DNA from: Halorientalis regularis
Lineage (GTDB): Archaea > Halobacteriota > Halobacteria > Halobacteriales > Haloarculaceae
Reading direction: 5' to 3'
Length of the DNA: 32,082 nucleotides
NCBI RefSeq assembly: GCF_023698535.1
Contig: NZ_JALJCL010000024.1
Location: 1 to 32,082 of the forward strand
Shown here piece after piece: positions 11,101 through 23,615 of this stretch. Position 1 is the first letter of the stretch, and every line of letters starts with the position of its first letter. A program made the translations under genes and the position numbers. A model generated the notes under the pieces. The model made no database searches and was not told the DNA's origin. It worked only from the letters and a program-made list of their open reading frames with translations.

Positions 11101-12318
11101 TCAGTTCGTCCGGATGACGTCGAGCCCGTTCTTCGTCTCGCTGGTCTCGTCCTGGCCGCCGTCGGCCCAGCCGTCACTCTGGGCACCGCCGGCGTTGCCC
11201 ATGCCGTTCTCGACGTTCTCGCTCGCGTCGAACGTGCCCTCGAACTCGGCCTCGTCGGCGTCCATGGCCTGCTTGGACTTGTCGGCCTGCTTCTGGGCCG
11301 TCGGACCGAGGATCTGGGCGCTCTGGACGCCGGTCATGATGGCCATGACCCGCACCTTGCCCTTGTACTCCTCCTGAATGCGCGCGCCCCAGATGACGTT
11401 GGCGTCGGCTTCCAGGCGGTCGGTGATGTTCTGGGCGATGCCCTCGGCCTCCTTCAGCGTGAGGTCGGGGCCGCCGGTGATGTGGACCAGCCCGCCGGAG
11501 GCACCGCGGTAGTCCACGTCCAGTAGCGGGTGGTTCATCGCGTCCTTGACGACCTCCTCGGTCTTGTTCTTGTCCTGGGTCTCGCCGACCAGCATGACCG
11601 CCACGCCACCCTTGTTCATGATGGCGGACATGTCGGCGTAGTCCAGGTTGATCAGCGATGGCTGGGTGATCGTCTCGGAGATACCCTTGACCGTCTCGGC
11701 GATGATCTGGTCCATCACCGAGAACGCCTTGCCGATGGGCAGGTTCGGGACGTAGTCGAGCAGGCGGTTGTTGTCCAGCACGATGATCGAGTCGGCCTCG
11801 TTGCGGAGACGCTCCAGGCCCTCTTCGGCTTTCACCGTGCGGGCGCGCTCAACGTTGAACGGCGTCGAGACCATGCCGACGACGATCGCGCCCTGCTCCT
11901 TGGCGATCTTCGAGATAACGGGGGCCGCACCGGTGCCGGTGCCGCCACCCATGCCTGCGGTCACGAAGACGAGGTCCGCTTCACCGATGACCTCCTTGAT
12001 CGTGCCCTGTGCCATCTCGGTCGCGCGCTCGCCCATGCTGGGGTCGCCGCCCGCGCCGAGCCCGTTGGTGAGGGACTTGCCGACCAGGATCTTCGTGTCG
12101 GCCTCGATCATCTCGAGGTGTTGGCGGTCGGTGTTGATGGCGATGGTTTCAGCGCCGTCGACACCGATGTTGTACAGCCGGTTGACCGTGTTGTTCCCGG
12201 CACCGCCCGCGCCGACGATGACGATCCGCGGGTCACCGAAGCCTTCCGCGCCAGCGTTGTCCTGTTTTTCCTTCTCTTTCTCGTCGTTTTCGAGTGCCGA
12301 CTTTACGAGGTCCTGCAT
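11101..12318 (-). CDS. ftsZ2: Cell division GTPase FtsZ2
   Basis: A 405-residue tubulin-family GTPase. An acidic/basic N-terminal extension (1-28) leads to [12 protein letters not shown] (36-45), then the GTP signature GMGGGTGTG (122-130). The T7 loop NLDYAD (224-229) supplies the catalytic Asp residues needed for polymerisation. An Asp/Gly-rich linker ends in the conserved tail GLDVIRTN. Haloarchaea carry two division FtsZs. The N terminus MQDLVK and the cdrS-ftsZ2 arrangement identify this as FtsZ2, which acts in constriction of the division ring at midcell. The gene is three bases downstream of cdrS and is surely co-transcribed with it. Its stop is convergent with ncsA. Confidence 0.96.
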
Positions 12319-12735: not shown

Positions 12736-13293
12736 TTACGGTTGGTCCAACACGTCCGCTGCCGGAGTCCGGCGGCCACAGCCGGGGCAGAACGCCCAGT
12801 CCGAGCGCAGTTCGTCGCCACACTCACAGAACACGCGCCGGGCCGCCTTCTCACCGCAGTTCGGGCAGTAAACGTGGTCAGAACCCAGGTCTTCGCCGCA
12901 TTGCTGGCACGTACTACGTTCGTCCGCGGCCGCGTCTGACACGTCCTCGCTCTCCTCGGCGGGCGTCTTACGCTCGTCGACGCTCACGTCGTCGGACTCG
13001 GTGGAATCGCCGTCGAGAGCGATGTTTACGTTGATATCCTGTGGCTGGCGCGGCGTAAACGTCGTCTCCAGCCGGTCGGCGATGATCGCGTCCACACGTT
13101 CCGCCACGAGGTCGTCGAGGCTGTCTTCCGTCGGCGTCGCCGACGCGCTCGACGCCGTCGCCTCGGGAGCGCTTTCGGTCGCCCCGTCGAGGTACGTCCG
13201 GAGCGCCTCGCGCATGACCTCGCTTTTCGACGCGTCGAACTCCTCGAGCTGCTCGATGAGTTCGTCGTCCGCGCGGAACGTTATCTTGCTCAT
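12736..13293 (-). CDS. cdrL: CdrL, RHH regulator with C-terminal zinc ribbons
   Basis: A 185-residue protein. An N-terminal ribbon-helix-helix domain (MSKITFRADDELIEQLEEF, then SKSEVMREALRTYL) is followed by a Ser/Glu-rich linker. A central segment LDDLVAERVDAIIADRLE may help oligomerisation. Two C-terminal zinc ribbons follow: C129/C132 with C143/C146, and C156/C158 with C169/C172. CdrL is known in haloarchaea as the long RHH partner that regulates cdrS-ftsZ2. The TATA box at 13324-13333 would start RNA near 13300, so ATG 13293 is chosen over the in-frame ATG at 13305. A further inverted GTAAGAC (12965-12971) lies inside the gene. Confidence 0.88.
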   Translation of the reverse strand: MSKITFRADDELIEQLEEFDASKSEVMREALRTYLDGATESAPEATASSASATPTEDSLDDLVAERVDAIIADRLETTFTPRQPQDINVNIALDGDSTESDDVSVDERKTPAEESEDVSDAAADERSTCQQCGEDLGSDHVYCPNCGEKAARRVFCECGDELRSDWAFCPGCGRRTPAADVLDQP

Positions 13294-13323
13294 TCGACCT
13301 GTCATACACCAAGCCAGGCGAAC

Positions 13324-15530: not shown

Positions 15531-16211
15531 GTGCCGCGGGTGGATTCGCGCGTGGCAGTTTCGTTCGATCTCTTCGGGACGCTGGTCGACGTCGACCGAT
15601 CCCCGGACCCGGCGGCAGCGGTCGCGACGGCGCTGTCAGACAGGGGCGTCGCCGTGCCCGACGACTGGGCGAGCGCCTACCGGGAGCGTCACATCGACGC
15701 GCCCGACGGCGCGTCGGTCCCGCTCCCGGCCCACGTCAGCGCCGCCCTCGCCAGCCGCGGCGTCGACGCGCCCGGGACGGCCATCAGACGCGCCGTCGTC
15801 GCGGCCTTCGACCCCGAGGTCGAGACCCGGGACGGCGCGGCCGCGGCCGTCCGTGCAGCCGCAGCCCACGGTCCGGTCGGCGTCCTCTCGAACTGCAGCG
15901 TTCCCCATCTGGTCTCGCGCGTCCTCACGCGCTCGACCGTGGATCGGGACCTGCTGGACGCTACGGTCACGAGCATCGGCTGTGGCTGGCGCAAGCCCGA
16001 CCGCCGGGCCTTCACGGCGGCGGTGACGGCGCTGGACGTGCCCCTCGACGACCTCTGGCACGTCGGCGACGACCCGCGGACGGACGGGCGGGTTCTCGAC
16101 CGCGAGTCGTCGGCCGACACGCCCGACGCGGCGGGCCCGAACCACGTTCTCCTGGAGGACGTGTCTCTCCGCAAATTCCCCGAATACATGGAGGGTCGGG
16201 CGTGGGACTGA
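15531..16211 (+). CDS. HAD-family hydrolase heading the cobalamin cluster
   Basis: A 226-residue haloacid dehalogenase-type phosphatase from GTG 15531. Motif I is SFDLFGTLVD with nucleophile D13. A helical cap follows at about 25-95. Motif II is VLSNCS (S120), motif III K155 in WRKPD, and motif IV HVGDDPRTDG (D180/D181/D185). It begins the plus-strand run of cobalamin genes and stops 16 bases before cbiB, so co-transcription is very likely. The late cobalamin pathway needs a phosphatase for alpha-ribazole phosphate or adenosylcobalamin phosphate. No CobC-like or CobZ-like gene is visible here, making this enzyme a candidate. The substrate is inference; the HAD fold is clear. Confidence 0.82.
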   Translation: MPRVDSRVAVSFDLFGTLVDVDRSPDPAAAVATALSDRGVAVPDDWASAYRERHIDAPDGASVPLPAHVSAALASRGVDAPGTAIRRAVVAAFDPEVETRDGAAAAVRAAAAHGPVGVLSNCSVPHLVSRVLTRSTVDRDLLDATVTSIGCGWRKPDRRAFTAAVTALDVPLDDLWHVGDDPRTDGRVLDRESSADTPDAAGPNHVLLEDVSLRKFPEYMEGRAWD

Positions 16212-16227: not shown

Positions 16228-17136
16228 GTGTTGAGCGCCGGCGCCGTCGGGCTGGCGCTCGCCCTGGACGCCGCGGTCGCCGAACTCCCGACGCCCGTCC
16301 ATCCGGTCGCCTGGTTCGGCCGCGCGGTCGGGCCGCTGGACCGGGACTGGCCCGCGCCGCGGCTGGTCGGACTCCTCGGTGTACTGGCGCTCCCGCTGGC
16401 CGCAGGCGCGCTCGTCTGGGCCGTCGTCGCGCCCGCGACGGCGCTCGACCCGCTCGCAGGTGCGGCCGTCGCGGGACTGGTGCTGTTCGTCACCACGAGC
16501 CTGCGCCGGTTGCTGTCTGCCGTCAGAGACGTGAGCGAGGCGACCGAACGCGACCTGGAGGCCGCCCGCGAGAAACTGCGCGCGCTTGCGGGTCGTGACG
16601 CGTCGGCGCTGTCGGCCGGCCAGCTCCGGAGCGCGGCCGTCGAGAGCGCCGCCGAGAACCTCGCCGACGGGCTCGTCGCACCGCTCGCGGCCTTCGCCCT
16701 CGGCGCACAGCTCTCCCCGGCGGTCGGCGCGGCCGCGGCCGCCTGGGTGAAGGCGGTCAACACGATGGACTCGATGCTGGGGTATCGCTCGAAACCCGTC
16801 GGGTGGGGGCCGGCGCGACTCGACGACGCGGTGATGTGGGTCCCCGCCCGCGCGAGTGCGCTATTGCTCGCGGCCGCGGCGGGCGCACCGACCGCGACGC
16901 GCCGCGCGTCGCGCTGGGTCGACTCGGTCCCCTCGCCGAACTCGGGCTGGCCGATGGGAGCGCTCGCGGCAGCCCTCGACGTGCGGCTCGAAAAACCGGA
17001 CGTGTACGTCCTCAACGCCGACGCGCACCTGCCCACGGTCGCGGACGCCCGGGCGGCCGTCCGGACCGTCGCCGTCGCGGGCGGCCTCGCGTACGCGCTC
17101 ACGGCCGCGCTCGTCTTCCTGCCGGAGGTGCGCTGA
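16228..17136 (+). CDS. cbiB: Adenosylcobinamide-phosphate synthase CbiB
   Basis: A 302-residue polytopic membrane protein that joins aminopropanol phosphate to adenosylcobyric acid. Family signatures are HPVAWFG (25-31), ESAAENLADG (139-148), KAVNTMDSMLGYRS (175-188) and SPNSGWPMGALAAAL in the C-terminal third. Several hydrophobic segments (about 48-70, 78-92, 150-172, 205-220 and the C terminus) fit an integral membrane enzyme. It starts at GTG 16228 preceded by GGGGTGAG, a good Shine-Dalgarno match. The cobS start follows its stop by one base, so translation is tightly coupled. Confidence 0.93.
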   Translation: MLSAGAVGLALALDAAVAELPTPVHPVAWFGRAVGPLDRDWPAPRLVGLLGVLALPLAAGALVWAVVAPATALDPLAGAAVAGLVLFVTTSLRRLLSAVRDVSEATERDLEAAREKLRALAGRDASALSAGQLRSAAVESAAENLADGLVAPLAAFALGAQLSPAVGAAAAAWVKAVNTMDSMLGYRSKPVGWGPARLDDAVMWVPARASALLLAAAAGAPTATRRASRWVDSVPSPNSGWPMGALAAALDVRLEKPDVYVLNADAHLPTVADARAAVRTVAVAGGLAYALTAALVFLPEVR

Positions 17137-17137
17137 C

Positions 17138-18022
17138 GTGTCCGACGACAGTGTGACGCGTGACGACACGTCCGACGACACCGCGTCCGACGCGTCACAC
17201 GGCGACCCGTCGGCGGGGACGGAAGCGACAGTCGAGCCGGCCGACCCGCGCGGCTCGCTCTCCACCCGAATCGTCGACGCCGTCCGTGGCTCGCTGGGTT
17301 TTCTCACGCGGTTCCCGGTCGGCACCGACCGGCGGGCCTGGGACGCCTTCCGGCGGACGCCCGCGGCGTTCGTCCCGGTCGGCTACCTCGTCGGCGCGCT
17401 CGCCGCCGTCCCCGTCCTCCTCCCGCTCCCGACCGCGACGGCGGCCGTCCTCTTTCCGCTCGGACTGGTCGCGCTCACGGGGATCAACCACGCCGACGGC
17501 GTGGCGGACGTTGGGGACGCCGCCGTCGTCCACGGCGGCGAGGACCCCGTCGCGGCCCGCCGACGGGTCCTGAAAGACAGCGCGGTCGGTGTCGGCGGGA
17601 CGCTCGCGCTCGCCCTGCTGGTAGCGGCGCTGGTCGCCGCCGGGGCTGCGCTCGCTGGCCTGCCGGCGTTCCCCGCACTCGCGGTTGTCGTCGCCGCGGC
17701 GGTCAGCGCGAAACTCGGGATGGCCATGGTCGCGTGTCTCGGGACCGCGCCGGCCGACGGACTCGGCGCACAGCTCACTCGTGTCTCCGGCCGCCGAGAT
17801 CTGCTCGTCCCCGTCACGCTGGCGCTGCCCGCCGGGGTCCTGACCCTGCCGTCGCCGGCCGCGGGCGTCGCGCTCGGTGCCGGGGTCCTCACGACGCTCG
17901 TGTGCTGGCGCTGGGCGGACGCGCGGCTCGGCGGGGTCAACGGCGACGTGTTCGGCGCGGCCAACGAACTCGCGCGCGTCGTCGCGCTCCACGCGGGGGT
18001 GATCGCGTGGACGCTCTCCTGA
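17138..18022 (+). CDS. cobS: Cobalamin synthase CobS (adenosylcobinamide-GDP ribazoletransferase)
   Basis: A 294-residue membrane enzyme that joins adenosylcobinamide-GDP with alpha-ribazole (or its phosphate). After an acidic, probably disordered N-terminal extension of about 45 residues, the family start GSLGFLTRFPVGT appears. The hallmark HADGVADVGDA (118-128) follows with its metal-binding acidic residues, then the LKDSAVGVGG segment and several Ala/Val-rich helices. The extension makes it longer than most family members (about 250). An internal start is possible, but GTG 17138 is one base after the cbiB stop. The 3' end overlaps cobY by 16 bases. Confidence 0.92.
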   Translation: MSDDSVTRDDTSDDTASDASHGDPSAGTEATVEPADPRGSLSTRIVDAVRGSLGFLTRFPVGTDRRAWDAFRRTPAAFVPVGYLVGALAAVPVLLPLPTATAAVLFPLGLVALTGINHADGVADVGDAAVVHGGEDPVAARRRVLKDSAVGVGGTLALALLVAALVAAGAALAGLPAFPALAVVVAAAVSAKLGMAMVACLGTAPADGLGAQLTRVSGRRDLLVPVTLALPAGVLTLPSPAAGVALGAGVLTTLVCWRWADARLGGVNGDVFGAANELARVVALHAGVIAWTLS

Positions 18023-18597
18023 TGTGTGGCGGCCGGGGAACCCGGCTCGACGCACCGGTCGAGAAACCCATGTACCGGGTGGCCGGACGGCCCATGGTCG
18101 ACCGCGTTCACGACGCGCTGGCCGGGAGCGACGTCGAGTCGGTCGTCGCGGCAGTGTCGCCGCAGACGCCAGAGACGGCGGCCCACCTCCGCGAGCGCGG
18201 CGTCGACGTCGTCGAGACGCCCGGCGAGGGCTACGTCGCCGACCTGGACGCGGCGCTCTCGACGCTCGCCCGCCCGGCCGTGACCTGCGTGGCCGACCTC
18301 CCCTTGCTCTCGTCCGCGCTGGTCGACGAGGCCTGCGAGGCCTACCGAGGGTCCTCGGCGGACTCGCTGACCGTCGCGGTTCCTGCGGACCTGAAACGAC
18401 GACTGGGAATGAGCGTCGACACGACCTTCGACGAGCAGGGTCGAGAACTCGCGCCGACGGGGCTGAACGTCGTGGGTGACGGTGAGGGGGCGGTGTGGGT
18501 TACGTCGGCGGCGCGGCTGGCGGTCAACGTCAACCGCCGGGGCGACGGGGCCGTGGCGGGGTGGTTGGCTGCACGGCTCGCTCAGCCGAACGAATGA
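18007..18597 (+). CDS. cobY: Adenosylcobinamide-phosphate guanylyltransferase CobY
   Basis: A 196-residue nucleotidyltransferase that activates adenosylcobinamide phosphate with GTP. It is the archaeal replacement for the bacterial kinase/transferase CobU. The N-terminal motif MCGGRGTRL (6-14) binds the nucleotide. EKPMYRVAGRPMVDRV continues the MobA-like fold. TCVADLPLLSS supplies the metal-binding Asp, and PTGLNVVG lies near the C terminus. Start GTG 18007 lies inside the end of cobS, indicating coupled translation. CobU kinase is absent, as expected for a pathway in which CbiB makes the phosphorylated product directly. Confidence 0.9.
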   Translation: MDALLMCGGRGTRLDAPVEKPMYRVAGRPMVDRVHDALAGSDVESVVAAVSPQTPETAAHLRERGVDVVETPGEGYVADLDAALSTLARPAVTCVADLPLLSSALVDEACEAYRGSSADSLTVAVPADLKRRLGMSVDTTFDEQGRELAPTGLNVVGDGEGAVWVTSAARLAVNVNRRGDGAVAGWLAARLAQPNE

Positions 18598-18633: not shown

Positions 18634-19683
18634 ATGGATCCCGACGCGGTAGACTCTCTGCTCTCGGGCGGATCCGACGACGACCCGGTCGCGGACGATG
18701 CGCGGGTCCCGCACGGGAGTTCGGACGACCGGCAGGTGCTCGATTTCAGCGCCAACACCAACCCGCGGTATCCCGAGGCCGTCCCGCGGATCTACGAGAC
18801 CGCGCTCCCGACCGCACGCGAGTACCCCGCCGACGACTACTCGGCGTTCCGCGTGCCCGCCGGCAAGTACGTCGGCTGTGAGCCCGAATCCGTGATTCCG
18901 ACCGCGGGCGGACTCGCGGCCATCCGACTCGCCATGGGCACGGTGGTCCACTCCGGCGAGTCGGTCCTCGTCCCCGCGCCGTCGTTCAGCGAGTACGCCC
19001 GCGAGGTCCGCCTCCAGGGCGGCGAACCCGAGTTCGTCCCCCACGACGAACTGCTCTCCGCCGACCCGGCCGACCACGCGATGGTCGCAGCCTGTAACCC
19101 GAACAATCCCACGGGCGAGGCTTACGATCCCGCCCGCATCCGCGAGTACGCCGACCGCTGTCGCCGGGCGGACACCGTCTTGCTCGTCGACGAGGCGTTC
19201 CTCGATTTCACCGAGGACCCCTCGCTCGCGGGAACCGAGGGCGTGATCGTCGCCCGCTCGCTCACCAAGATGTTCGGCCTCCCCGGCCTTCGCGCCGGGT
19301 TCGCGGTCGCGACGGGCCAGCTCCGCGAACGGCTCGCGGCCGCGCGGCTCACCTGGTCGCTGTCCGAACCCGCCGCCGCCGTCGGTGCCTACTGCATGCG
19401 ACAGACCGAATTCGTCGCCGAGACGCGCCAGCGGATCGCCCGCGAACGCCCCCGGATGGCCGCGCGACTGGGCGACCGTTTCGACGTGTTCGAGTCGGAC
19501 GCCCCCTTCCTCCTCTGTGACGCCGGGTCGAGCGAGACCGTCGACGCGGCCATCGCCGCGGCCCGCGACCACGACATCGCGATCCGGGACGCCCGGACCT
19601 TCCGCGGGCTGGACTCGCACTTCCGGGTGGCCGTGCGGATGCCCGCCGAGAACGACCGCCTGCTCGCCGCGCTCGGTGTATGA
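18634..19683 (+). CDS. cobD: CobD-like PLP enzyme, L-threonine-phosphate decarboxylase
   Basis: A 349-residue fold-type I PLP enzyme. DFSANTNPRYP (37-47) is the CobD/HisC-type substrate loop. NPNNPTGE (155-162), VDEAFLDFTED (185-195, PLP Asp186) and SLTKMFGLPGLRAG with Schiff-base Lys212 follow. A C-terminal FRVAVRMPAEND region completes the fold. CobD makes (R)-1-amino-2-propanol phosphate from threonine phosphate, the side arm used by CbiB. Histidinol-phosphate aminotransferase is the main alternative for such sequences, but the gene is inside a cobalamin operon. A 36-base gap separates it from cobY, and its ATGA overlap with cbiZ couples the two. Confidence 0.87.
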   Translation: MDPDAVDSLLSGGSDDDPVADDARVPHGSSDDRQVLDFSANTNPRYPEAVPRIYETALPTAREYPADDYSAFRVPAGKYVGCEPESVIPTAGGLAAIRLAMGTVVHSGESVLVPAPSFSEYAREVRLQGGEPEFVPHDELLSADPADHAMVAACNPNNPTGEAYDPARIREYADRCRRADTVLLVDEAFLDFTEDPSLAGTEGVIVARSLTKMFGLPGLRAGFAVATGQLRERLAAARLTWSLSEPAAAVGAYCMRQTEFVAETRQRIARERPRMAARLGDRFDVFESDAPFLLCDAGSSETVDAAIAAARDHDIAIRDARTFRGLDSHFRVAVRMPAENDRLLAALGV

Positions 19684-20390
19684 ACACGATCGTTGCCGAC
19701 GGCGTCCTCCGGGTCTCGGGCCCGGACCGCTGGCTCGCCACGGGACCTGGCGGAGGCCTTCGAACTGCACCGGTCGCATACAATATCTCCGTCCCCGAGG
19801 GATTCGACCGAACCGATCTCGATAGCTACGTTACCGAGCGCCGCGAGCGGGCCGGCTTCGAGCGTGAGGGACCTGCCCTGCTGACCGGCGTCGGCCTCGA
19901 ACACGCCCGCGGTGCCCGCGCCGAGCCCGTAACCGTCGTCGCCACGGCGGGACTCTCGAACCCCGCGGCGCTCCCGATGAACCCGGACGTGAGCGATGAC
20001 GGGGCCGAAGCCGAGGCCGCCGACCGCGAACCCGGGACGGTCAACCTGCTCGTGGGGACGACCCGAGCGCTCGACCGCGGCGCGCTCGCGACCCTGCTCG
20101 CGACCGCGGTCGAGGCCAAGACCGCGACCCTCCAGTCCCTGACGGGCTTTACCGGCACCACCTCCGACGCCGTGGTGGTGGGTTGCCACCGGGACGGCGA
20201 ACCAGCCGACTTCGCGGGCAGCGGGACGCCCGTCGGCGCGGCGACGCGGGCCTGCGTCCGCGACGCCGTCCGGGCGAGTCTCGACTCACGATACACCGAC
20301 CGCGCGATTCCCGGCAGCGTGACCGACGCCGACCACGGCGTCCGGACCGGCGAGCGAGCCACCGTGTTCGAGCCGACGGACCGGGAGTGA
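19680..20390 (+). CDS. cbiZ: Adenosylcobinamide amidohydrolase CbiZ
   Basis: A 236-residue enzyme that cuts the aminopropanol arm from adenosylcobinamide, giving adenosylcobyric acid, so that scavenged corrinoids enter the pathway. Motifs include the N-terminal RVSGPDRWLATGPGGG, LLTGVGLEHA, ATAGLSNPAALP (88-99), GTVNLLVGTTRAL and TGFTGTTSDAVVVGC. These are the conserved CbiZ blocks. The start ATG overlaps the cobD stop as ATGA. CbiZ presence shows salvage of incomplete corrinoids, not only de novo synthesis. Confidence 0.92.
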   Translation: MNTIVADGVLRVSGPDRWLATGPGGGLRTAPVAYNISVPEGFDRTDLDSYVTERRERAGFEREGPALLTGVGLEHARGARAEPVTVVATAGLSNPAALPMNPDVSDDGAEAEAADREPGTVNLLVGTTRALDRGALATLLATAVEAKTATLQSLTGFTGTTSDAVVVGCHRDGEPADFAGSGTPVGAATRACVRDAVRASLDSRYTDRAIPGSVTDADHGVRTGERATVFEPTDRE

Positions 20391-20417: not shown

Positions 20418-21080
20418 ATGACAGACACGAGAGACGCGACCGACGATCCGCTCGGCCCCAGCGAGATCGAAGCGAGCGCGCCCGAGGAGTTCGGCCTCGT
20501 ACAGGTCTGGTGGGGCGACGGCAAGGGCAAGACCACCGCGGCGCTCGGGATGGCGTTCCGGGCCGCCGGCCACGGCTACCGCGTCCACGTCCTCCAGTTC
20601 ATGAAAGGTGGGACCGGGACTGTCGAGGACGTGCGCGGCGAGTACAACGCCATGGCCGCGATGCCGGGCCTCTCCTACGAGAACGCCGGCCACTACGGCT
20701 GGCACGGGTTCATGGACGGCAGCGACGACGACGAACACGACGCCCGCGCGAAGGGCGCACTCGCACGGGCCCGGGAGTTGATCGAGGCGGCTGGTGAGGC
20801 CGACCTCGACGAACCGGTCGCGCTCGACGGCGACCCCGCGGCGGGCGTCCACATGCTCGTTCTCGACGAAGTGCTGTACGCCGCAAACCGAGGCCTGATC
20901 GACCCCGAGGACGTGATCGGCCTGATCGAGGACAAACCCGAGAATCTGGAACTCGTCCTGACCGGCGGCCACGACCGCCCCGAGTACGTCACGGAGCGCG
21001 CCGACCTGGTCACCGAAGTCGGGAAGGAGCGCCATCCCATCGAGGCGGGTCAGGGGGCGCGGAAGGGAACGGAGTTCTAA
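20418..21080 (+). CDS. cobA: Cob(I)alamin/corrinoid adenosyltransferase (BtuR/CobA type)
   Basis: A 220-residue P-loop enzyme that transfers the 5'-deoxyadenosyl group of ATP to cobalt. The Walker A variant GDGKGKTT is at 33-40, then AALGMAFRAAGHGYRVHVLQ and FMKGGTGTVEDV. LVLDEVLYAANRGLI is the Walker B-like region, followed by ELVLTGGHDRPEYVTERADL. These define the CobA/BtuR family, distinct from PduO and EutT. GGAGG seven bases or so before ATG 20418 is a good ribosome-binding site. Adenosylation before CbiZ fits the salvage order. Confidence 0.93.
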   Translation: MTDTRDATDDPLGPSEIEASAPEEFGLVQVWWGDGKGKTTAALGMAFRAAGHGYRVHVLQFMKGGTGTVEDVRGEYNAMAAMPGLSYENAGHYGWHGFMDGSDDDEHDARAKGALARARELIEAAGEADLDEPVALDGDPAAGVHMLVLDEVLYAANRGLIDPEDVIGLIEDKPENLELVLTGGHDRPEYVTERADLVTEVGKERHPIEAGQGARKGTEF

Positions 21081-21245: not shown

Positions 21246-22811
21246 GTGAGCGAGGCCAGGACCATCCTCGTCGCCGGCACCGCCAGCCACGTCGGCAAGA
21301 GCACCGTCGCCGCCGGACTCTGTCGACTCCTCGCCGACCGCGGCGTCGACGTGGCTCCGTTCAAGGCCCAGAACATGAGCAACAACGCTCGCGCGGTGGC
21401 CGACCCCGACGGCGCGACCGGCGAGATCGGCGTCTCCCAGTACGTCCAGGCCCGGGCCGCGCGCGTCCCGGCGACGACGGACCACAACCCCGTCCTCCTG
21501 AAGCCCCGCGGCGACGGCGAGTCCCAGTTGATCCTGCAGGGCGAGGCCGTCGCCCACTACAGCGCCGGCGAGTACTACGACGACCACTGGGACGGCGCGC
21601 TCGCGGCCGCCCGCGAGTCACACGCTCGACTCGCGGCCGACCACGACGTGATCGTCGCCGAAGGTGCAGGCTCCATCGCCGAACCGAACCTCCGGGACCG
21701 GGATCTGGCAAACGTCGAGACGGCCCGGTTCGCCTCCGCCGACATACTCCTCGTCGCGGACATCGAACGCGGCGGCGTGTTCGCTTCCCTCGTGGGCACC
21801 ATCGAGCTGATCCCCGCGGACCTCCGGGAGCAAGTGGTCGGCGCGGTGATCACGAAGTTCCGTGGCGACCGCTCGCTGCTCGACCCGGGTATCGCCGAGC
21901 TCGAGGAGCGGACCGGCGTGCCGATCCTCGGTGTCCTCCCGTACGACGACCCAGGCCTGCCCGAGGAAGACAGCGTGTCGCTCCCGCCAGTCGGCGAGCG
22001 GGCCGTCCGTGGCGACGAGGACGGAATTTCCGACGATCAGTCCGTGATCGTCGGGGTCCCACGGCTCCCCCGGGCCTCGAACATGACCGATCTGGAGCCG
22101 CTGGCGCGCGAGCCGGGCGTCCGGGTGGCGTACCTGCCACTCGACGCCGCCCTCGCCGACGTGGACGCCGTCGTCCTTCCGGGGACGAAGAACACGGTCG
22201 ACGACCTGCGCGCGCTCCGTGAGGCCGACTTCGGGGCGGAGTTGGCGGCGTTCGACGGCCCGGTGGTCGGCCTCTGTGGCGGCTACCAGCTCCTCGGCGA
22301 GCGGATCACCAACGCGGGCGTCGAGAGCACCGACGACCTCGATTCGCTGGCGGGATTCGGCCTGCTTCCGGTCGAGACGCGGTTCGAGGCCGACAAGCAG
22401 GTCGAGCCGGTGACGCGGGAGGTACGCGGCGTCGGCCCGCTCTCGGGAGCCACCGGGACCGTGAGGGGCTACGAGATCCACATGGGGAAGACGCGGCTGA
22501 TCGGCGAGGCCGAGCGCCCGTTCCCCGGCGACGAGGGGCGCGAGCCCGACGGAGCCGCGACCGAACGGGTGCTGGGAACCTACCTCCACGGCCTGTTCGA
22601 GAACCCGACTGCGCGTACGGTGTTCGTCGAGTCGGTGTTCGCGGCCGCGGATCGGGACCGACCGAGCGGGGGGGAGAGCGCGACTGGGACCGCTGGCACC
22701 GCTCCGGGCGGCATCGACGCGGCCGCGGATCGGGCAGCGGCGCTGCTCCGGGACTACGTCGATCTGGACCTGCTCGCGCTCCCTGGGCCCGGTCACGGCG
22801 ATGGTCCGTAA
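21246..22811 (+). CDS. cbiP: Cobyric acid synthase CbiP/CobQ
   Basis: A 521-residue glutamine-dependent amidotransferase that amidates four side chains of adenosylcobyrinic acid a,c-diamide. The N-terminal dethiobiotin-synthetase-like ATPase domain begins [14 protein letters not shown] (7-20), with [10 protein letters not shown] after it. A long middle region includes [16 protein letters not shown]. The C-terminal glutaminase domain has the nucleophile C344 in [10 protein letters not shown] and H448 in YLHGLFEN. The length is slightly above the usual about 490, owing to a Gly/Thr-rich insert near the end. Start GTG 21246 follows a 165-bp spacer, so this last gene of the run may have its own promoter. 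Confidence 0.94.
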
Positions 22812-22818
22812 ATTTAAG
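22811..22818 (+). promoter_or_regulatory. TATA box of the MinD-like gene
   Basis: AATTTAAG overlaps the cbiP stop codon and lies about 25 bases before an inferred start near 22840, giving a leader of only a few bases before ATG 22845. This separates the MinD-like pair from the cobalamin run transcriptionally. Confidence 0.5.
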
Positions 22819-22844
22819 TGCGAAACCGCGGCCATCCTCGCGTA

Positions 22845-23615
22845 ATGGTCGAGGCGTTCGCGGTCGCGAGCGGGAAAGGGGGGACGGGCAAGACCACCAG
22901 CACGCTCGCGCTGGGGATGGCGCTGGCGGAGGAGTACGACGTGACGGTGATCGACGCGGACACGGGCATGGCGAACCTGCTCTTTCACGCCGGGCTCTCG
23001 TCGGTCGGCACGACGTTGCACGACGTGCTAGTCGAGGGCGGCGCACCGGTCGAGGACGCCGTCTACGACCGGTTCGGGATGTCCGTCGTCCCCTGCGGGA
23101 CGAGTCTGGCGGGCTTCGAGGCGGCCGAACCGGAGCGCCTGCGTGACGTGGTTGCCACGCTTGCGGTCGACACCGACGTGATCTTGCTCGACTCGCCGGC
23201 GACGCTGGGCTCGAAGTCCGCCGTCCTGCCCATCGTCCTGGCCGACCGGGTCGTGGTCGTCCTCCAGCCCACCATCCCCGCGCTCTCGGACGGCCTCAAA
23301 GTTCAGGAGTACGCCCACTCGTACGGCACCGAGACGGCGGGAACGATCTTCAACAAGGTGGCCGACCCCGACGACGTGCAGTCGGTCGCCGAGAAGTCCC
23401 GGCGGTACTTCGACGGGCCGACGCTGGCGACCGTACCCGACAGCGACGCGGCCCGGGCGGCCCGCCGCGCCGGTGAGCCCTTGCTCGCGTACGCGCCTGC
23501 CGCCGAGGCCGCCGAGGCCTACCGCGGGGCCGCTCGCGATCTCGACGTGCGCTCGGGCGCGGCCGACGACGTGGCCGACCGCTTTCGCAGCGCCGTCATC
23601 CCGGAGCCACGATGA
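22845..23615 (+). CDS. MinD/ParA-family ATPase
   Basis: A 256-residue deviant Walker A ATPase. KGGTGKTT (11-18) carries the signature extra lysine K11. VTVIDADTGMANLLFHAGLS is the switch I region with the Asp, and VILLDSPATLGSKSAV is Walker B/switch II. VVVVLQPTIPALSDGLKVQEY and IFNKVADPDDV follow, as in MinD. Haloarchaea have several MinD homologues, used for positioning motility and pole structures rather than FtsZ. No typical C-terminal amphipathic membrane helix is evident, since the end reads RFRSAVIPEPR. The gene overlaps the next one by ATGA, so the pair is translationally coupled, which suggests the products act together. Confidence 0.87.
   Translation: MVEAFAVASGKGGTGKTTSTLALGMALAEEYDVTVIDADTGMANLLFHAGLSSVGTTLHDVLVEGGAPVEDAVYDRFGMSVVPCGTSLAGFEAAEPERLRDVVATLAVDTDVILLDSPATLGSKSAVLPIVLADRVVVVLQPTIPALSDGLKVQEYAHSYGTETAGTIFNKVADPDDVQSVAEKSRRYFDGPTLATVPDSDAARAARRAGEPLLAYAPAAEAAEAYRGAARDLDVRSGAADDVADRFRSAVIPEPR

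Follow-up and report, generated by a model that had tools for sequence, protein, structure and literature searches.

Which enzyme removes the 5'-phosphate late in cobalamin synthesis in haloarchaea is the question raised by a hydrolase gene in Halorientalis regularis. The gene (15531–16211, + strand) lies in a stretch of 32,082 nucleotides (contig NZ_JALJCL010000024.1), hereafter the window, and was originally predicted to encode a hydrolase of the HAD superfamily that heads a run of cobalamin genes and takes the place of the CobC or CobZ phosphatase. Below, the gene is referred to as HAD, a candidate adenosylcobamide-5'-phosphate or alpha-ribazole-5'-phosphate phosphatase.

The cobalamin gene run and its HAD hydrolase

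The HAD open reading frame consists of 226 codons (226 amino acids) and, as called, begins with GTG at 15531; an in-frame GTG at 15552 may be the true start because most homologs begin with MAVSFDLFGT. The closest relatives from named species come from Halorientalis persicus (93%) and H. pallida (88%). Superfamily membership is clear: the protein matches PF00702 among the Pfam profiles (E = 4e-10, 40.8 bits versus a cut-off of 26.4) and contains motifs I–IV with invariant D13, S120, K155, and D180. No match to the CobC profile (TIGR03162) was produced by the search of this protein against NCBIfam.

Open reading frame coordinates and profile matches confirm that HAD heads a tight cobalamin run, its stop at 16211 being separated by 16 bases from the cbiB frame that starts at 16228. 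The gene order, all on the same strand, is HAD-cbiB-cobS-cobY-cobD-cbiZ-cobA-cbiP. The run includes cbiB, adenosylcobinamide-phosphate synthase (16228–17136; PF03186, E = 4e-69, and TIGR00380 over the cut-off); cobS, adenosylcobinamide-GDP ribazoletransferase (17162–18022, start provisional; PF02654, E = 1e-32, and TIGR00317 over the cut-off); and cobY, adenosylcobinamide-phosphate guanylyltransferase (18019–18597, start provisional), for which the best NCBIfam matches, TIGR00454 and the CobY model NF045495, are both below the cut-off and the gene order is as in Haloferax. These are followed by cobD, threonine-phosphate decarboxylase (18634–19683; TIGR01140, 287.5 bits, 3 bits short of the cut-off), cbiZ, adenosylcobinamide amidohydrolase (19680–20390; PF01955, E = 8e-44), cobA/btuR, corrinoid adenosyltransferase (20418–21080; PF02572, E = 5e-48), and cbiP/cobQ, cobyric acid synthase (21246–22811; NF001989, 536 bits, over the cut-off). 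The predicted archaeal CobT, the maker of alpha-ribazole phosphate, is encoded on another contig of the same genome (C44, 102505–103482), unlike in many relatives, where cobT lies between cobY and cobD.

Some neighboring genes were noted as well. A MinD-like ATPase is encoded 3' of cbiP (22818–23615), and in two other loci (L097 and L102) a MinD-like gene adjoins HAD in the opposite direction. Farther upstream, a protein of the ribbon-helix-helix/zinc-ribbon type whose middle domain is that of CdrL (PF24252) is encoded at 12736–13305 on the - strand, next to an FtsZ-like frame (11101–12318).

The phosphatase hypothesis is not new: it has already been published as a prediction. A 2021 review of open annotation issues in Haloferax lists HVO_0586, the gene preceding cbiB (HVO_0587), as predicted EC 3.1.3.73, and the same activity was predicted for VNG_1577C of Halobacterium by Rodionov et al. 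2003, as cited in that review (PMC8305020); no experimental test of the 2003 prediction was found in the papers that could be searched. Both genes occupy the same place before cbiB and have the same proposed function as the window HAD. Five Haloferax loci in our set (L188, L205, L219, L238, and L245) have the order HAD-cbiB-cobS-cobY-cobT-cobD-cbiZ-cobD2, matching HVO_0586–0593 and differing from the window in that cobT lies between cobY and cobD.

Linkage, phylogenetic profile, and the absence of CobZ

We examined 145 genomes of the class, counting HAD at E ≤ 1e-10, and detected HAD in 131, cobS in 133, and cbiB in 134 of these. In 112 of the 133 cobS-positive genomes, the gene that immediately precedes cbiB in the same orientation is HAD; these 112 genomes span many genera, and the gap measures 0–251 bases (median 80). 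Live HAD copies are associated with cobS (123 genomes with both, 4 with HAD only, 10 with cobS only, and 8 with neither; Fisher p = 4e-6, in a test that ignores relatedness). The profiling suggested with the original prediction thus yields the expected association, alongside 10 and 4 exceptional genomes.

The ten cobS-positive genomes without a live HAD (G001, G002, G007, G026, G044, G050, G073, G089, G124, and G140) contain no HAD orthologs except for dead copies in G026 and G124. A diverged ortholog was sought and rejected, since only generic HADs were retrieved, at E about 1e-14 or weaker. Nor was a replacement phosphatase recognized beside cbiB in these genomes; the gene 5' of cbiB mostly encodes a BtuF-like binding protein and otherwise CbiA or CobT. 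In six of them (L036–L041), the BtuF-like periplasmic binding protein occupies the usual place of HAD. These ten genomes must therefore remove the phosphate in another way, and HAD is not the only solution.

HAD is absent from six of the 12 cobS-negative genomes and truncated in G042, and in G109 the nucleophile Asp13 is replaced by Ala. The four with a live copy are heterogeneous. In G142, which keeps Asp13, an open frame right after HAD (L051:6838–7629, - strand) resembles both ends of CobS without a match to the CobS Pfam profile, and cbiB is gone; the locus resembles a decaying cob cluster. G121 retains Asp13 beside a cobD relic, and G074 and G090 retain it in the absence of cobS and cbiB, with no cob genes seen nearby.

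Unlinking of the gene from the cobalamin cluster in relatives, named at the outset as evidence against the prediction, does occur: besides 11 genomes of the Halorubrum type, a few more show it, next to the 112 genomes with linkage. In a tree of 133 HADs, the unlinked copies nest inside the linked ones. The 11 genomes have a CobT-CbiA-CbiB-type cob cluster without HAD at a different place from HAD, and all 11 unlinked HADs retain Asp13. This second type of haloarchaeal cluster, cobT-cbiA-cbiB-cobS-cobY-cobD-cbiZ-cobA-cbiP, is found in many Halorubrum-type genomes (L155–L159 and L162–L167).

Asp13 is lost, being replaced by Ala or Glu, in 6 of the 21 unlinked orthologs (G026, G124, G109, G063, G088, and G139). 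Because all six belong to one clade, this amounts to one to three events rather than six. Three of these genomes (G063, G088, and G139) encode a second, cbiB-linked HAD with Asp13. The frames with Ala for Asp13 are intact (L053:7493–8125, L098:6977–7609, L099, and L110, from G109, G063, G139, and G088), and in L098 the gene lies a few kilobases from one for a class-I glutamine amidotransferase resembling a GMP synthase subunit. Plain pseudogene decay is disfavored by the omega of about 0.18 estimated for the nucleophile-less copies (NG86; a crude estimate at this G+C content). Since they are still constrained, these copies may have kept a non-catalytic role, possibly as pseudoenzymes. We did not find this nucleophile loss described in the papers searched.

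The CobZ alternative has a clear distribution. The CobZ protein of Methanosarcina mazei and the corresponding half of CbiS have the same proposed reaction as HAD but belong to an unrelated sequence family. No genome of the 145 contains CobZ above the cut-off, and TIGR03161 (CobZ) produced no match in the H. regularis genome at E ≤ 0.001. A CobZ domain fused to the window CbiZ was also considered and ruled out: the CbiS match covers only positions 2–195 of 335, the amidohydrolase half, so that this protein, unlike bifunctional CbiS, lacks the CobZ half. A broader sample of the phylum comprised 197 genomes, including 33 that belong to the order of the window. CobZ matches were detected in 108 of the 164 genomes outside this order and in none within it, and the HAD clade was found in 28 genomes, all of this order. 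In no genome tested do CobZ and HAD occur together; this exclusion over the phylum, which we did not encounter in the papers searched, may go back to a single replacement event at the root of the class.

An atypical active site

Motif I of HAD is F-D-L-F-G-T, with the nucleophile D13 present and Phe15 at Asp+2, that is, in place of the second Asp of the DxD motif, which is the general acid/base in HAD phosphatases (PMC12715507). The original prediction of complete HAD motifs accordingly fails at this residue, although D13 and motifs II (S120-N121), III (R154-K155-P156), and IV are present. Motif IV, HVGDDPRTD (GDDxxxD), has the acidic metal-binding form (DD or GDxxxD) expected of a canonical HAD phosphatase; G179 and D180 are invariant and D185 nearly so. 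Both Phe at Asp+2 and Asp13 are conserved in all 112 cbiB-linked homologs, the window included, and D13, F15, S120, N121, K155, and D180 are invariant in a 30-row alignment. Elsewhere in the protein, His68 is invariant and Tyr50 nearly invariant among the homologs. The invariance of Phe at Asp+2 was not found in the papers searched, and literature searches yielded no usable precedent for a characterized HAD phosphatase without Asp+2. Without the acid/base Asp, the textbook mechanism of HAD phosphatases is not to be simply assumed, and because this residue is missing, a direct assay is worthwhile.

Structure comparisons point in more than one direction. By profile, the nearest solved structures are BH32/PH0459, HDHD3, haloacid dehalogenases and, more weakly, phosphatases including YihX. 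In a Foldseek search with the AlphaFold2 model (pLDDT 90.7), fluoroacetate dehalogenase 4A, HDHD3, and PH0459 rank first, and in VIA-align 2 dehalogenases and phosphatases appear together at Z of 15–17. Over the profile and Foldseek searches, cis-epoxysuccinate hydrolases are also among the nearest solved structures. Haloacid dehalogenases, PH0459, HDHD3, and YihX share with this HAD the C1-capped HAD-IA fold and the nucleophile Asp and, likewise, lack Asp+2. YihX is a sugar-1-phosphate phosphatase despite Gly at that position; haloacid dehalogenases, unlike this HAD, are not known to carry the GDDxxxD metal motif.

HAD may be linked to cobalamin but catalyze another reaction, acting on substrates whose leaving group is better (anomeric or acyl phosphates), in clean-up of a side product, or in carbon chemistry of the kind performed by haloacid dehalogenases and epoxysuccinate hydrolases, with EC 3.1.3.73 provided by another phosphatase. 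The invariant Phe, the non-phosphatases among the top structure and profile matches, and the ten cobS-positive genomes that manage without HAD, as would be expected of an accessory step, all agree with such a reading. We nevertheless consider it rather unlikely, given that motif IV has the metal-binding form of phosphoryl-transfer HADs, that no CobZ-type candidate was found in the class, and that its almost unvarying position as first gene of the cob run points to a core step.

Competing phosphatases and the proposed role of HAD

The profile searches (Pfam and NCBIfam) bear out the absence of both CobZ and CobC from the cluster in the window. Finding either gene elsewhere in the genome had been named as grounds for abandoning the prediction; cobZ was not found, and for cobC the outcome is mixed. 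CobC, alpha-ribazole phosphatase, has the same proposed reaction as HAD but belongs to the histidine phosphatase family, and a CobC-like member of that family is encoded on contig C33 (85798–86334; L035:7784–8422). Its best NCBIfam match is TIGR03162, at 112.6 bits versus a curated cut-off of 162.9, which leaves it outside the alpha-ribazole phosphatase equivalog. The statement that haloarchaea have "no homolog" of CobC (PMC8305020) thus holds for the equivalog but not for the wider family.

This protein, or non-specific phosphatases, could remove the phosphate, with HAD as an auxiliary. The need of the ten cobS-positive genomes for something besides HAD, along with the best match just noted, fits this possibility, which still appears quite improbable to us: the score is below the cut-off, the same model matches in 13 of 14 control genomes (Haloferax volcanii among the positives), and no cobalamin gene was recognized beside the C33 gene. 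Moreover, CobC-like histidine phosphatases were detected in 54 of the 145 genomes, roughly one in three; their presence does not correlate with that of cobS (Fisher p = 0.54), and of the 10 cobS-positive genomes that lack a live HAD only 3 encode one. The phosphoglycolate-type housekeeping phosphatase that the original prediction offered as its alternative, a chance neighbor of the cobalamin genes, can be rejected as very improbable: although there are several generic HAD-IA hydrolases per genome, the position next to cbiB is constant in 112 genomes of many genera, live HAD tracks cobS, the acid/base Asp is missing, and the phosphoglycolate phosphatase model (TIGR01449) scores 20.7 bits versus a cut-off of 180.

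On balance, we slightly favor the reading that HAD is the haloarchaeal replacement of CobZ, a predicted phosphatase that would use a non-canonical acid and act on adenosylcobamide-5'-phosphate or alpha-ribazole-5'-phosphate. Its observed basis consists of the family, the conserved residues, the linkage, the profile relative to CobZ, and the loss of Asp13 from one clade of unlinked copies; the substrate, reaction, and proton donor are what we infer. HAD would be a haloarchaea-specific, cobalamin-dedicated HAD-IA hydrolase acting in nucleotide-loop assembly. CobS couples adenosylcobinamide-GDP with alpha-ribazole-5'-phosphate, after which HAD would take the 5'-phosphate off adenosylcobamide-5'-phosphate, or it would act earlier, on alpha-ribazole-5'-phosphate. 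Nucleophilic attack by Asp13 on the phosphate would yield an aspartyl-phosphate, with Asp13, the backbone carbonyl of Phe15, and Asp180/Asp185 as the probable ligands of Mg2+ and Ser120 and Lys155 stabilizing the intermediate. With no acid at its customary +2 position, the leaving oxygen would have to be protonated by another group, for which His68 and Tyr50 are candidates.

There is strong support for the tie to the cobalamin nucleotide-loop genes and for the absence of CobZ. The predicted replacement itself is partly supported, being weakened by the non-standard active site, and loses its novelty to the earlier publication. An obligatory role is opposed by the ten cobS-positive genomes that lack a live HAD and the four cobS-negative genomes that retain one; the phosphatase reading itself, by the dehalogenase-like pattern of Phe at Asp+2 shared by all linked copies. 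The constraint still seen on the nucleophile-less copies also counts against it, as their loss of Asp13 is not simple gene death. We also entertain, tentatively, the possibility of a cobalamin-dedicated clade of D-x-F HADs that would be either phosphatases with a non-canonical proton donor or enzymes of a different nucleotide-loop chemistry, with the copies of one lineage cut off from the cob genes, deprived of the nucleophile, and still under selection as possible pseudoenzymes. If HAD is indeed the replacement phosphatase, one of the two gaps listed for the late haloarchaeal cobalamin pathway would be closed, and CobC and CobZ would be joined by a third enzyme, unrelated to either, for this reaction.
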